Part shown: positions 26,623 through 55,656 of the stretch, piece after piece
Layout: each line of letters opens with the position of its first letter
How positions within the stretch are numbered: the stretch's first letter is position 1
Source: Limnospira fusiformis SAG 85.79
GTDB taxonomy: Bacteria > Cyanobacteriota > Cyanobacteriia > Cyanobacteriales > Microcoleaceae
Length of the DNA: 64,000 nt
Direction of reading: 5' to 3'
Assembly: GCF_012516315.1 (NCBI RefSeq)
Contig: NZ_CP051185.1
Span: forward strand, 1,787,403 to 1,851,402
Notes under the pieces: generated by a model
Database searches by the model: none
What the model was told of the DNA's origin: nothing
What the model saw: the letters and a program-made list of their open reading frames with translations, nothing else
Position numbers and translations under genes: made by a program

Positions 26623-27312
26623 TTATTGCTCCCAACAGTTAGGATATATGCTATTGTTTGCGGGAGTTTCCCACAGTCGAGGAATTGCTAGAACGACGAC
26701 TGCTTTTTTTTTAGGGGAAGTTGACGACGAATTGGAACGAGACCGCCGCGAGGTGCTATTTTTCGGTTTTTTGACTAGAGCCGATGGTGGTATCAGTCCA
26801 TATACCCCTTGGCTTTGAAGACGTTTATAAATAGATGACCCCCAATCAGATAGATAGTGGCTCATAGCACCGACTTCTAAACCGCAGAAGATAGCGATCC
26901 ATTCCATAGAGTGGTTTAACAGAAATTGCCATAGTTCCCCTGCTAAACTCGATAGCGTCCACTCTACCGGAAACAGAAACTCGATCGCCATAGTCATAAT
27001 CAGACCAAAACCGCCTAGCCAGGTGAACAAGTACAGAACCCGTAAAGCCGTCCCAATAAAAGGCCCGTGGGACAGAAACGAGCGATGATGTAAACTGTTT
27101 TGATAGGGAACCCATAGCCAACGGAACCACCCCCAACGTTGAAACTGTCGTGAGTTTAGATCTAAATCTGGCCCAAACATCAGGCCACTAAATAGAAAAC
27201 TGCCAGATACTAGGAGAGTTAGATGGCTGCTGCGAGTTTGTCCAAACGTCAAAGCCGCCACCAGTGGCAAGCTCCAGAGTGTTATGCGATCGTGGGTTTT
27301 GCCAGAAGGCAT
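26623..27312 (-). CDS. DUF2227 membrane protein, putative metal-binding
   Basis: A 229-residue DUF2227 protein common in cyanobacteria. His-rich and acidic motifs likely to bind metal are GKTHDRITLW, GPDLDLNSRQ, HHRSFLSHGP and HYLSDWGS. At least three hydrophobic segments suggest a membrane protein related to the YdjM/LrgB-like hydrolase folds. The C-terminal tail is Lys/Arg/Ser-rich. The biological role is not known. Confidence 0.8.
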   Translation of the reverse strand: MPSGKTHDRITLWSLPLVAALTFGQTRSSHLTLLVSGSFLFSGLMFGPDLDLNSRQFQRWGWFRWLWVPYQNSLHHRSFLSHGPFIGTALRVLYLFTWLGGFGLIMTMAIEFLFPVEWTLSSLAGELWQFLLNHSMEWIAIFCGLEVGAMSHYLSDWGSSIYKRLQSQGVYGLIPPSALVKKPKNSTSRRSRSNSSSTSPKKKAVVVLAIPRLWETPANNSIYPNCWEQ

Positions 27313-27388: not shown

Positions 27389-27460
<72 letters not shown>

Positions 27461-27483
27461 TTTTCGGGAAATCCTTATCCTAG

Positions 27484-28051
27484 CAGCGATAACCGGGATT
27501 CACTTAACCCGATAGTCGCACCTAATTACTCAGATATTACTCACAATCTAGTCCTAGCACAGGAAAATAATTCTGTCAATAGGATGATTACTCAGTCAAC
27601 AAGCACAACTTAATCAATCTGTCAAATACCCATATCACTCCCTAAACCCGACGCTGATAGGGTAGTTCCCTTGTGATACCTGTCAATGGCAAGCCTATCG
27701 GTTCGTTCGTCACCATTGACTGCTATCACGTCGGTCACTTCCCCAAGAGTGCTTTTCCCGGTTATGGGGGGAGGGTATGTTTCAAAGCCAACACGATAGC
27801 CGTAGGTGGGGGGGAACCCGCTAGGGAATCAACGTACAAAGATATCAGACCGCCTTTCAGTATCAGATTATGAAAGTATGGCGATCGCCTATCCGGTTAT
27901 CTATGGGTCTGATTCATAATCTCCGGTGAGGGGAAACTATGGGCTATCATCTGGCTGATATTAAAAGTGCGATCGCCAAATCTAAACTATCATCTACCGG
28001 AACCAACCCGATACCCCTCAACAACTTTTCAACTGGAGGCAATTACCGGGG
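27484..28051. repeat. Left inverted arm
   Basis: Matches the reverse complement of 29366-29838. It is strong from 27601 to 28051, with two extra blocks of about 80 and 25 bases here, and weak from 27484 to 27600. It encodes in pieces a phage structural-type motif, STGTNPIPLNNFSTGGNYRG, near its inner end. Both arms are broken by indels. Confidence 0.85.
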
Positions 28052-28176
28052 GTAGTGCCTAATATTAATGATAGAGGTGTAAAAACCGACTCGGGTTCAA
28101 TTTCCATGCCTACCTGCCCAACTTGTACATCTACCCAATTGTTAGACTAAATGGATTAGGCTCAATATCATTTTGA

Positions 28177-28401
28177 ACCGCTGGCTCCGAACCCATACGC
28201 ATCGATGACTTTGGCGCCGTCAGTATTGCTGACGTCGTCGGTATCGGAACCACAGTAGCACAAACAAGATTAGATGTTAATGGAAATATAAGAGGGCATA
28301 GAATTAATTTCAGTAATTTACCGACAAGCCCTACAGGTTTAAGGGTTGGTGATTTATGGTGCGATACAGCTAACGATCATGTAATCAAACAGATTAGATA
28401 A
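28177..28401 (+). pseudogene. Phage tail-fibre-like C-terminal fragment
   Basis: An open frame reading TAGSEPIRIDDFGAVSIADV, then VGIGTTVAQTRLDVNGNIRG, then FSNLPTSPTGLRVGDLWCDT. The IGTT-x-x-LDVNGNI pattern is a hallmark of phage tail-fibre and related proteins. A TGA at 28174-28176 cuts the upstream frame right before TAGSE. Its stop overlaps the next gene's ATG (TAATG). Confidence 0.75.
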
Positions 28402-28757
28402 TGCCTAACAACTATGATATATCTGAGACTCATTGGTTTTGAGTTTATCACCAATATTTCATCAAAGAGGATGATTCAAAACATGGTAGTCAGAAATTTC
28501 CAGATATATCAGGTAGCCAATTTGTGAGGATATTATTTGAGGCGGACCAAATTCCTGTAGATTGGAAAATCGCGGGATGGTTAAAATTTTACGCATACAA
28601 TGATGCCCAACAGAATATGATGGTTAAACAATATATTATTTGGCTTAATCAATATCAAATCATTGCCGAGCCGCCATATAGCAATTTTGACGCAGTATTT
28701 GACCCCTTAGAGAGGATTAAGTGGTTGACCATTTATTTTTGGAGATTAATACAATGA
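28401..28757 (+). pseudogene. Small phage-type gene with in-frame TGA
   Basis: From ATG at 28401 the frame reads MPNNYDISETHWF, then TGA at 28440, then continues open for more than 100 codons (YHQYFIKEDDSKHGSQKF and EADQIPVDWKIAGWLKFYAY) to a TGA at 28755. Coupling to both neighbours (TAATG before, ATGA after) shows it was one gene. A GTG at 28524 could restart it. No family is recognised. Confidence 0.6.
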
Positions 28758-29008
28758 ATCTAATTATACTAGAGGTGGCATTATTGATAATTGTTATTTT
28801 TTATTTGGTAATTTCTTTATTTATAGGTAATAAAATCATGGAGTCTAAGCTAGATTAAGACAATAAAAATTTAGACATATTATTTGAGTTTTTTAAATAT
28901 TCGTTAGATAGTATAATCTGCCCCAAAATATATGACCATGATACGCGTTTACCACCTAACTCAATCAACAGAGATGATATTGACGATGATGGTTGGCGTA
29001 AACCCTAA
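28754..29008 (+). pseudogene. Small membrane protein gene with in-frame TAA
   Basis: Codes for MNLIILEVALLIIVIFYLVI and a basic end, stops at TAA (28856), then stays open in the same frame to 29008 (DNKNLDILFEFFKYSLDSII and later RDDIDDDGWRKP). One N-terminal membrane helix plus an acidic tail would fit a phage holin or spanin, but that is a guess. The first 34 residues alone could still be made. Confidence 0.5.
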
Positions 29009-29038
29009 CAGCCTAACAGCTAACTCAATAACTTAATG

Positions 29039-29067
29039 ACCCCCTATGGTTTCTGACTGTAGGGGGT
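29039..29067 (+). terminator. Hairpin after the phage-type genes
   Basis: ACCCCCTA pairs with TAGGGGGT (8 bp, 13-base loop), 31 bases after the last phage-type frame. It is probably the old terminator of that gene set; the T-run is poor. Confidence 0.5.
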
Positions 29068-29082
29068 GTCTATGTATTTTGG

Positions 29083-29169
29083 GCTAACAGTCTAACGGCA
29101 ACAGTCTAATTAAATGTCAATTTTTTCATTAGCTTAAATGCTAACAGTCTAACTGCAACAGTCTAATTA
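29083..29169. repeat. Paired 30-bp direct repeat
   Basis: Two copies of a 30-bp unit with GCTAACAGTCTAAC and CAACAGTCTAATTA, at 29083 and 29140, one mismatch apart. Related CCTAACAGC words occur just upstream (29003-29022). Function unknown. Confidence 0.8.
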
Positions 29170-29365
29170 CGGGTTTATATGAATGCTCACCCTATCATGT
29201 CCAGATATTACCCATAACGGATATTACCCCTAACCGATCGCTTTACCTACAACCTACGACTAAGATTTTTGGGTAAGGCGATTATGTTGGTAGTGACTGT
29301 TGGACGTGATGATTACCATCAAAGATTGGAGACTTGCTGAGAATTATGTGGGTATCGATTCCCAT

Positions 29366-29838
29366 CCCGGTAATTGCCTCCAGTTGAAAAGTTGTTTGGG
29401 GGGTATCGGGTTGGTTCCGGTAGATGATAGTTCAGGTTTTGCGATCGCACTTTTAGTTTCCCTCACCGGAGATTATCAATTGGACCCATAGATAACCGGA
29501 TAGGCGATCGTGTTGGCTTTGAATCATACCCTCCCCCCATAACCGGGACAAGCACTCTTGGGGAGTGACCGATGTGATAGCAGTCAATGGTGAGGAACGA
29601 ACCGATAAACTTGCCATTGACGGGTATCACAAGGGAACTACCCTATCAGCGTCCGGTTATGGGGGTGATATGGGTATTTGACATATTGATTAAGTTGTGC
29701 TTATTGATTAACCCGTCAATGATTAAGATTTATTGCTAAGGGATATGCACTAATTGTCCCGTGTGCTAAGACTGAATGGAGTGCATTTTGAGTGTAACGG
29801 TACGACTATCGGGTTGAGTGTTTCCCGGTTATCGTAGC
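29366..29838. repeat. Right inverted arm
   Basis: Reverse complement of the left arm, strongest at 29366-29702 and weaker out to 29838, which is 22 bases from the end of tRNA-Ala. It lacks two blocks present in the left arm. No open frame of length spans it. Confidence 0.85.
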
Positions 29839-29860
29839 CAGAATAGGCTTTTAAGCGATA

Positions 29861-29933
29861 TGGAGAATAGGGGGGTCGAACCCCTGACCTCTGCGGTGCG
29901 ATCGCAGCACTCTACCAACTGAGCTAATTCCCC
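29861..29933 (-). tRNA. tRNA-Ala (anticodon CGC)
   Basis: A 73-base tRNA on the minus strand. The acceptor stem GGGGAAT/ATTCTCC has a G3-U70 wobble pair, the main alanine identity element. The anticodon arm CTGCG-ATCGCAC-CGCAG gives anticodon CGC, and the T arm contains GGTTCGACCCC. The anticodon arm contains the HIP1 octamer GCGATCGC. The CCA is not encoded. Confidence 0.93.
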
Positions 29934-29973
29934 AAGTATAGAGAGAGATAGGACACAACCGCCCATTATAACA

Positions 29974-30693
29974 TCAATCGGGTTCCGATAGTGCAACTTC
30001 TCCAGAGATTCCCAAAATCCTCTCTAACTCCAAGTCCTGGAGATAGTCCACACACCAATCAGCGCGACGCTGTAGCATATGGAAAGGATAAGTATGGGCT
30101 ACCCCCACGACAGGAATACCCGCGCGTTTCGCCGCCTCAATACCAGCAAAAGTATCCTCAATAGCTAAACACTCTTCCGGCTGCAAATTCAAGGTCTCAT
30201 CAGCAGAATTTAGCCTTTGTAGCGCCAATAAATAGCCATCAGGTTCCGGCTTGCTGGTGGTAATATCATCCCCAGCGACAATGATGGAAAAATAATCAAT
30301 CAACCCCGCGCGAGTCAAAACTAACTCAACTTCCTCTCTAATAGCGCCGGTAACTAGGGCGATTTTCAAATTCGCCGTCTGAATGCGTGTAATTAGTTCC
30401 CGCAACCCATCATATAGAGGTAGGTCTGACATAGCATTTAACCGCTGTTGATAGGCTTGTGCTTTCCGCGCGATCAGGTTTTCTAGCTCCTCAGAAGTTA
30501 CGACTCTGCCGTATAATGAGAGTAAATCCTGTAAACAGGCGCGATCGCTTCTTCCTAAGCAAACTTCACGAATTTTATCTGGTTTCACCCGCAGATTTTC
30601 AGCGACCAATAATTCCTCGATTAACTGTTCATGAATCGATTCATCATTGATAATTACACCATTAAAATCAAAAATAACAGCCTTTAAACTCAT
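29974..30693 (-). CDS. HAD-superfamily hydrolase, phosphoglucomutase/phosphatase-like
   Basis: A 239-residue HAD protein with a helical cap after motif I. Motif I reads FDFNGVI, so the nucleophile Asp is present but the second Asp, the usual acid/base, is Asn. Motif II is LVTGA, the Lys is in SKPEPDGYLLAL, and motif III is ECLAIEDTFAGIEAAKRAGI. The layout resembles beta-phosphoglucomutase and phosphoglycolate-phosphatase types. With Asn in motif I the reaction may differ; the substrate is unknown. Confidence 0.8.
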   Translation of the reverse strand: MSLKAVIFDFNGVIINDESIHEQLIEELLVAENLRVKPDKIREVCLGRSDRACLQDLLSLYGRVVTSEELENLIARKAQAYQQRLNAMSDLPLYDGLRELITRIQTANLKIALVTGAIREEVELVLTRAGLIDYFSIIVAGDDITTSKPEPDGYLLALQRLNSADETLNLQPEECLAIEDTFAGIEAAKRAGIPVVGVAHTYPFHMLQRRADWCVDYLQDLELERILGISGEVALSEPD

Positions 30694-54779: not shown

Positions 54780-55139
54780 ATGCCAGCCCCCTATAGTTAC
54801 GACCTCAGACAAAAAGTTATTGATGCCATTGAACTAGACGGTATGCCCAAAACAGAAGCCAGTCAAGTTTTCCATGTTAGCAGGAACACCATTAATCTCT
54901 GGCTGCAAAGAAAAGCACAGACCGGAGACTTCCTCCCTAAACCTCATCACCGACCTGGCAATAACCACAAAATTACCGACTGGCAAAAATTCAAGGCTTT
55001 TGCCCAAGAGCATGGCGACAAAACAGCAGCTCAAATGGCTGAACTTTGGGATGACGACATCTCTCCTCGCACCATATCCAGAGCCTTGAAGAAAATTGGC
55101 TTCACCAGAAAAAAAAACTTACGGCTACCAAGAACGTGA
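54780..55139 (+). CDS. IS630-type transposase, first frame (DNA-binding)
   Basis: A 119-residue frame with helix-turn-helix MPAPYSYDLRQKVIDAIELD and FHVSRNTINLWLQRKAQTG, then a winged part (DDISPRTISRALKKIGFTRK). It ends soon after a run of nine A at 55110-55118, where a shift of +1 leads into the second frame. Programmed slippage on A-runs is usual for this family. Confidence 0.88.
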   Translation: MPAPYSYDLRQKVIDAIELDGMPKTEASQVFHVSRNTINLWLQRKAQTGDFLPKPHHRPGNNHKITDWQKFKAFAQEHGDKTAAQMAELWDDDISPRTISRALKKIGFTRKKNLRLPRT

Positions 55140-55656
55140 TGAGCAACAGCGAGAGGAGTTTATGGCTCAGATTGAACATATGGAGCCGGAAGAAGTGGTC
55201 TACCTCGATGAAGCCGGCATGAATAGTCAGGACTCGGATTACCCTTATGGTTACTGCGAGGAAGGAAAACGCTTCCATGCACTCAAATCAGGGAAGAGGC
55301 AGGGCAGGGTAAGTATGATAGCCGCATGGTGTCATCAACAACTCTTAGCTCCCTTTAGCTTTGAGGGTTGTTGTCATCGGACAGTGTTTGAGTTGTGGTT
55401 GGAGTTCATCTTAATTCCAACATTGAAGCCAGGTCAGACTCTAGTATTGGACAATGCAACGTTTCATAAAGGGGGACGGATTGCTGAACTGGTGGAGGCA
55501 GCTCAATGCCGTTTACTCTATCTACCACCTTATTCGCCAGACCTCAACAAGATAGAGAAATGTTGGTCGTGGCTGAAAGCCCGTATTCGCCACTGCATTG
55601 AGCAGTTTGATTCTCTCCATGATGCCATGGATTCCGTTCTCAAAGCTGCGTCCTAA
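55096..55656 (+). CDS. IS630-type transposase, second frame (DDE)
   Basis: A DDE domain: Asp in VYLDEAGM, Asp in LVLDNATFHK, and Glu in NKIEKCWSWLKARI. It is expressed by frameshift from the upstream frame at the A-run (KKTYGYQERDEQQ is the join), so the separate ATG at 55096 is probably not used. The catalytic set is complete, so the element could still move. Confidence 0.88.
   Translation: MASPEKKTYGYQERDEQQREEFMAQIEHMEPEEVVYLDEAGMNSQDSDYPYGYCEEGKRFHALKSGKRQGRVSMIAAWCHQQLLAPFSFEGCCHRTVFELWLEFILIPTLKPGQTLVLDNATFHKGGRIAELVEAAQCRLLYLPPYSPDLNKIEKCWSWLKARIRHCIEQFDSLHDAMDSVLKAAS

Follow-up and report, generated by a model that had tools for sequence, protein, structure and literature searches.

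The window analysed here comprises 64,000 nucleotides of the Limnospira fusiformis SAG 85.79 genome (contig NZ_CP051185.1, positions 1,787,403 to 1,851,402); the coordinates below are window positions unless another genome or locus is named. Two inward-facing tRNA genes, tRNA-Val (tac; 27389..27460, plus strand) and tRNA-Ala (cgc; 29860..29934, minus strand), were identified using ARAGORN and Rfam, and their 3' ends adjoin the left and the right arm, respectively, of a segment in which decayed phage-type genes are enclosed between inverted arms of about 490-580 bp. The arms were delimited by sequence comparison and a repeat-end model as terminal inverted repeats (TIRs), the left one, at the Val end, at 27469..28051 (plus strand) and the right one, at the Ala end, at 29366..29852 (minus strand); of the modelled outer ends, 27469 and 29852, the latter is a five-base extrapolation. 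The right arm ends about 8-15 bases from the 3' end of tRNA-Ala, which corrects the 22 bases given in a preliminary description of this DNA. Five inverted blocks connect the arms (27596-28050 vs. 29366-29707), and a gapped comparison gave 80.4% identity over 516 aligned bases (27476-28050 vs. 29845-29366). The T-loops of tRNA-Val (TTCAAGTCC; 27441..27449, plus strand) and tRNA-Ala (TTCGACCCC; 29872..29880, minus strand) occupy the position of the crossover overlap (O) of intact family members, as placed at tRNA-Val by reference to loci L097, L101, and L105. Both tRNA genes keep their own matching 3' halves. The host flanks are a 229-aa gene (26623..27312, minus strand), which lies beside tRNA-Val in relatives too (e.g., G016 and G023), and a 239-aa gene (29974..30693, minus strand), the product of which we take to be HAD-hydrolase-like and which lies beside tRNA-Ala in relatives too (e.g., G003 and G016).

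The core between the arms contains three gene relics on the plus strand. The first (28306..28401) is tail-fibre-like, with 81% identity in tblastn to residues 557-587 of a protein of locus L088; a tail-fibre gene had been proposed here, and the resemblance holds, but only a C-terminal stub of 31 residues is present. It is followed by a relic of a 118-aa gene (28401..28757; 73% identity over 118 aa, one in-frame stop), which comes directly after the fibre gene in full copies, and by a relic of a 98/102-aa gene (28733..29008; 54% identity over 98 aa, one in-frame stop), which adjoins the TIR in full copies. These decayed genes with relatives in full copies agree with the earlier idea of a phage-like remnant. 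A 56-base piece at 28082..28137 (unstranded) has 96% identity to a site at 3.80 Mb and a partial match at 0.17 Mb; it presumably resembles the start of an IS1-type InsA gene and is perhaps the scar of an internal deletion. Between the relics and the right arm, a 30-base direct repeat was observed (29083-29112 and 29140-29169; 97% identical, 57 bases apart). A search of the window for an integrase-side arm found none, and no recombinase was seen among its ORFs. Elsewhere in the window, ORFs at 54780-55653, which we assume to be transposase-like, are 97-99% identical to ORFs beside a TIR copy at 3.74 Mb.

The sister genome of Arthrospira sp. PCC 9108 (CP066886.1) contains the segment as well, in the same orientation and 98% identical across the first 2270 of 2501 bases; the right arm of this orthologue is broken by an insert. 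Since the same layout recurs there, an assembly artefact is unlikely.

The left arm matched at least 41 places in the window genome and at least 68 in PCC 9108; these counts are lower bounds, 40 of 83 and 40 of 142 candidates having been scored, respectively, and some copies yield several matches. Judged by comparison of these copies, the arms are the long TIRs of a Limnospira/Arthrospira integrative element that exists in multiple copies. The preliminary description had set a phage origin against arms drawn from an unrelated dispersed repeat; the arms do belong to a dispersed family, but the family consists of the element's own TIRs. Among the PCC 9108 loci examined, the TIR ends make 21 plus/minus pairs, 1.8-19.5 kb apart. 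Full copies reach about 11-19 kb, with cargo of about 3 to 18 kb in intact members and TIRs of about 0.5-1 kb. A plain MITE or IS repeat was rejected as an explanation, since conserved virus-like gene sets lie between the TIRs. In 14 of the 21 pairs, the two end cores are mismatched, agreeing at no more than 19 of 28 bases, which is what recombination between TIRs of different copies would produce. Left-right identity was not decisive as a test for such hybrids, given that the pairs with matching cores span 86 to 99.8%. The window arms are the least similar among 20 TIR pairs compared, the interrupted orthologue being set aside. One 1.8-kb pair in PCC 9108 (L112, 957-2752), with matching cores and an adjoining recombinase module, is much shortened, like the window copy.

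The positions of the TIR ends were surveyed within the loci examined in each genome. In the window genome, 16 of 24 TIR ends adjoin the 3' end of a tRNA or tmRNA gene, five an integrase arm, and three other sequence; the chance expectation for ends at tRNA 3' ends is about 0.003, against the 16 observed, in line with the earlier view that tRNA 3' ends serve as integration sites. The targets are 15 tRNA genes and the tmRNA gene (14 of the 40 tRNA genes listed and one outside that list). The PCC 9108 loci contain 51 TIR ends, 13 at tRNAs, 21 at an integrase arm, and 17 at other sequence. GTTAACTAT closes ten of the latter 17, and in four of these it is preceded by a T-loop-like GGTTnnnnnCC, a pattern that would fit a lineage having shifted to look-alike sites outside tRNA genes. 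Cores ending in GTTAACTAT at non-tRNA sites mark a PCC 9108 sub-lineage at L096, L097, L106, L108, L109, L110, L112, and L115.

In intact copies (L097, L101, and L105), host DNA and O precede the first TIR, followed by the cargo, the inverted TIR, an inverted O, arm A, the recombinase, arm B, a further O, and host DNA again. In each of them O is identical at all three junctions (TTTAATTCC, TTGACTACC, and TCTGTATCC, respectively), and L104 and L112 have two and one mismatches within O. By sequence, O within the family corresponds to a tRNA T-loop or to a sequence resembling one; at tRNA genes it is the T-loop itself, and the bases that follow restore the 3' half of the tRNA, which suggests a crossover within the T-loop. 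Empty sites were recovered for all four PCC 9108 insertions tested, the joined flanks matching the window genome across the join with identities of 98, 96, 93, and 82%; the match at tRNA-Gln (96%) ends 36 bases beyond the join. Wherever the junctions of an integrated copy are readable, an attP-like junction (integrase arm, O, TIR) is present in inverted form. Across the 720 kb of PCC 9108 surveyed, the A-side of the integrase module faces a TIR in 21 of 21 cases and the B-side in 0 of 17, so that no inversion isomers of the module were found in these loci; the A-side count includes two cases missed by the pattern search and listed as TIR ends, and one further weak match was left unclassified. 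In the window genome, three of four A-sides and three of eight B-sides face a TIR, the B cases resembling tandem or stub junctions.

A divergent tyrosine recombinase is encoded just outside one TIR of full copies. Its family copies outside the window carry the pattern R275, R381, G403-H404, and Y413, of which R275, G403-H404, and Y413 are invariant and align with the PF00589 integrase of genome G235; R381 is conserved within the recombinase family but unaligned with that integrase. The recombinase had no match of its own in Pfam, PHROG, NCBIfam, or PDB sequences, and its structure model (mean pLDDT 44) was set aside. Relatives, many of them weak, were found in 18 of 292 sampled genomes. The catalytic pattern, attachment at tRNA 3' ends, and a direct repeat with an empty site are together those of tRNA-integrating tyrosine-recombinase elements, to which the family can be assigned. 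Genome G231 has five matches to the recombinase family. One of its loci (L184, 9592-16852) is a 7.2-kb island at tRNA-Ser with a direct repeat and a recombinase of the same family; its 744-aa gene is presumably primase/helicase-like. Another island, of about 5.8 kb (L188), likewise has a recombinase of this family, and here the tRNA-Leu 3' end is simply repeated in direct orientation; an inverted repeat near its recombinase was rejected as part of the island, outside of which it lies.

The gene set common to full copies includes a fibre protein, a DUF1064/Holliday-junction-resolvase-like nuclease, an SF3/AAA+-like ATPase of about 399 aa, and smaller proteins; further cargo proteins have about 118, 115-118, 264, 588-676, 565, 213, 154-163, 114, 125, and 244 aa. 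The fibre protein strongly matches Peptidase_S74 (Pfam) and tail PHROGs. Among 20 proteins scanned (18 cargo proteins and two recombinases), only the two fibre ORFs and the nuclease reached E values below 0.001 against Pfam or PHROG, and about ten cargo families had no clear match in either. The repeats in the fibre part also match, at E 4e-11, a PHROG annotated as virion structural protein (head and packaging). Terminase, portal, and major capsid proteins had no Pfam/PHROG match in the 18 cargo proteins, where divergence could hide them, and no transposase was found among the 20 proteins; a few copies contain IS-like ORFs as extra inserts. The 399-aa protein, in a model of mean pLDDT 72, is similar to ATPases of the MCM, SF3, and phage primase-helicase kinds at low global TM-scores, and it may be a replicative helicase. 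Searches of PDB sequences with the recombinase and ATPase profiles gave nothing better than E 0.2. The ATPase matched 26 loci in one genome; 17 of these 26 matches have lengths not divisible by three, which suggests that frameshifts are frequent, and many family copies are damaged.

Relatives of the 399-aa ATPase were found in four of 292 sampled cyanobacterial genomes, the window genome included. Genome G235 has two copies of 16 kb that are 95% alike and carry a PF00589 integrase (L151/L156 and L152/L157), in which relatives of the nuclease and of the 244-aa and 197-aa proteins adjoin the ATPase; a search of 19.9 kb of each copy revealed no long inverted repeat, the far ends being compared by eye. 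Repeated operator-like motifs of the ACTTTAAGTAATACTT type were observed between their genes. In genome G181, the ATPase has as neighbours a nuclease that matches the same PHROG and a 248-aa gene, assigned by position alone to the slot of the 244-aa gene. Searches of 50,697 phage records and 72,556 plasmid records detected no ATPase relatives, and those of the phage records no relatives of the 565-aa protein; records near the window genome may be missing from these sets. Five viral-contig scans relying on short exact peptide patterns, with close records possibly excluded, yielded none of the ATPase, 565-aa, and 264-aa proteins.

The two host flanks of the segment were traced in 38 further genomes besides the window genome and PCC 9108. 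Both flank genes were matched in 32 of them (six lack one gene, the second match in G028 being a distant paralogue), and they are neighbours in none, which bears out the suggestion of a rearranged end. Four of these genomes (G010, G022, G012, and G016) carry both genes on a single contig, at linear distances that, in ascending order, are 1.9, 3.0, 3.7, and 4.4 Mb; the other 28 have them on separate contigs, which is weaker evidence, as a contig split alone leaves the distance unproven. In relatives such as G016, the 229-aa gene beside tRNA-Val and the 239-aa gene beside tRNA-Ala stand apart. The window genome has a second exact tRNA-Ala 3' fragment (L078; genome positions 2703954-2703972) with an integrase arm and a TIR stub, 0.89 Mb off. 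A search for tRNA fragments of this kind had been proposed: an attR/attP-like one exists for tRNA-Ala, at 2.704 Mb, but none for tRNA-Val, for which the window genome contains no 3' fragment with an integrase arm, only the gene itself and two tRNA-like matches with two mismatches. Inward-facing tRNA pairs also surround TIRs at Leu-caa/Ala-ggc and Leu-gag/Arg-tct in the window genome, the latter spanning 23.5 kb with a further TIR end inside, and at Ala-ggc/Leu-caa and Pro-cgg/Pro-tgg in PCC 9108. No genome was found in which both sites are occupied yet unjoined.

The segment is most probably an internally deleted, integrase-less hybrid of two element copies, formed by recombination between TIRs and marking a rearrangement breakpoint. 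One copy would have entered tRNA-Val and another tRNA-Ala, at sites far apart; homologous recombination between their long TIRs would then have inverted or translocated the chromosome between them. The product here would be tRNA-Val, TIR, part of one cargo, TIR, and tRNA-Ala, with the integrase side left elsewhere, and later deletion, in which an IS may have taken part, would have reduced the cargo to about 1.3 kb. Lacking a recombinase, the remnant is probably immobile by itself. Recombination within the TIRs is favoured over a crossover at O because each tRNA end retains its own 3' half. The TIRs of the element's copies appear to have reshuffled the chromosome.

That the integrase itself joined the two sites, an attP-like junction of the tRNA-Val element recombining with the T-loop of tRNA-Ala and flipping the chromosome as proposed for the pTN3 integrase of Thermococcus, is a less attractive explanation that we consider unlikely. 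It draws on the inverted attP-like junction kept by integrated copies, on the similarity of O, a T-loop, across tRNAs, and on an archaeal integrase that flips chromosomes at breakpoints in opposed tRNA pairs, according to passages of PMC5495485. Such a reaction predicts a Val-type 3' half on tRNA-Ala, but the Ala end carries its own, and the Ala-type integrase-side junction surviving 0.89 Mb away points to a separate Ala element. Scarcely credible is a single prophage-like element integrated at tRNA-Val and inverting between its arms, as in the invertible segment once proposed: the long inverted arms, tRNA border, and phage-type genes would suit it, but the window has neither an integrase-side arm nor a recombinase ORF, the two flanks are unlinked in relatives, the PCC 9108 orthologue has not changed orientation, and the integrase modules in the examined loci of that genome all point one way.

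The preferred reading, a hybrid formed through TIRs, offers a concrete, testable cause of rearrangement in repeat-rich Limnospira chromosomes. Spirulina is a commercial crop, and the element family is multi-copy, virus-like, and tRNA-linked, with few database relatives. One Limnospira strain was described, in a passage of PMC8085491, as 29.6% repetitive with 41 tRNAs and eight phage annotations; a single incomplete 10.6-kb prophage region is mentioned in PMC8700078, and prophage induction by mitomycin C, and capsids, in PMC8523472. A passage of PMC11281685, published in 2024, states that its authors were unaware of any complete genome of a Limnospira phage. No published description of the element was recognised in the open-access literature (titles, abstract starts, and passages), subscription papers lying mostly outside the search.

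Full copies may be viruses or satellites. Assignment to the tailed phages (Caudoviricetes) is not supported, terminase, portal, and HK97-type capsid being unmatched in the 18 cargo proteins, an absence that may reflect divergence; a DDE-transposase transposon or MITE is not supported either, given the lack of a transposase in the 20 proteins and targets that are tRNA T-loops or, in many cases, sequences resembling them. Polintons and tectivirus-type elements combine long TIRs with a protein-primed polymerase, a double-jelly-roll capsid, and an FtsK-type packaging ATPase. The present element is similar in its size of about 11-19 kb, long TIRs, and virus-like genes; it differs in that its ATPase model is nearest to MCM/SF3-type helicases (with low global TM-scores), and the element proteins scanned had no match to protein-primed polymerase B, double-jelly-roll capsid, or FtsK-type packaging ATPase.

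The yeast 2-micron plasmid consists of two unique regions between two long inverted repeats that hold the sites of the Flp/FRT recombinase system. The circle deduced from L097, L101, and L105 would have the same inverted-repeat plan; unlike the plasmid, the element integrates into the chromosome, belongs to another domain of hosts, and showed no inversion isomers in the PCC 9108 loci. It is an improbable though far-reaching idea that the intact copies represent a new family of cyanobacterial viruses or satellites, with a circle bearing two inverted att sites in long repeats around the recombinase gene, amplified in the Flp/2-micron style, and acting as a main driver of chromosome shuffling in spirulina. 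If true, recombination between inverted att sites during replication would explain the 26 helicase loci in one genome.

The Thermococcus element pTN3, as described in passages of PMC5495485, is comparable as a tRNA-targeting tyrosine recombinase element associated with large chromosomal inversions, the breakpoints of which lie at opposed tRNA pairs. In that system, recombination of short homologies was shown to be the work of the integrase itself, whereas here long TIRs allow homologous recombination, and the window tRNA ends retain their own 3' halves. Tycheposons, in the passages of PMC10872708, share tRNA borders, a tyrosine recombinase, several tRNA targets, and cyanobacterial hosts; the present element differs in its virus-like cargo with TIRs. 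A general parallel is with tRNA-integrating prophages, islands, and satellites, which likewise have a recombinase beside att, a probable T-loop crossover, a restored tRNA 3' end, a short direct repeat, and empty sites. The T-loop is common to tRNAs, which suggests how one recombinase family can spread across many tRNA genes. In contrast to those elements, TIRs bound the cargo here, 15 tRNA genes and the tmRNA gene of one chromosome were hit, and the recombinase gene has att with its arm on either side, duplicated in inverted form. The recombinase family of the Limnospira element also occurs in ordinary islands of other cyanobacteria (L184 and L188), and, judging from these two examples, the Limnospira family seems to have added the inverted att duplication.
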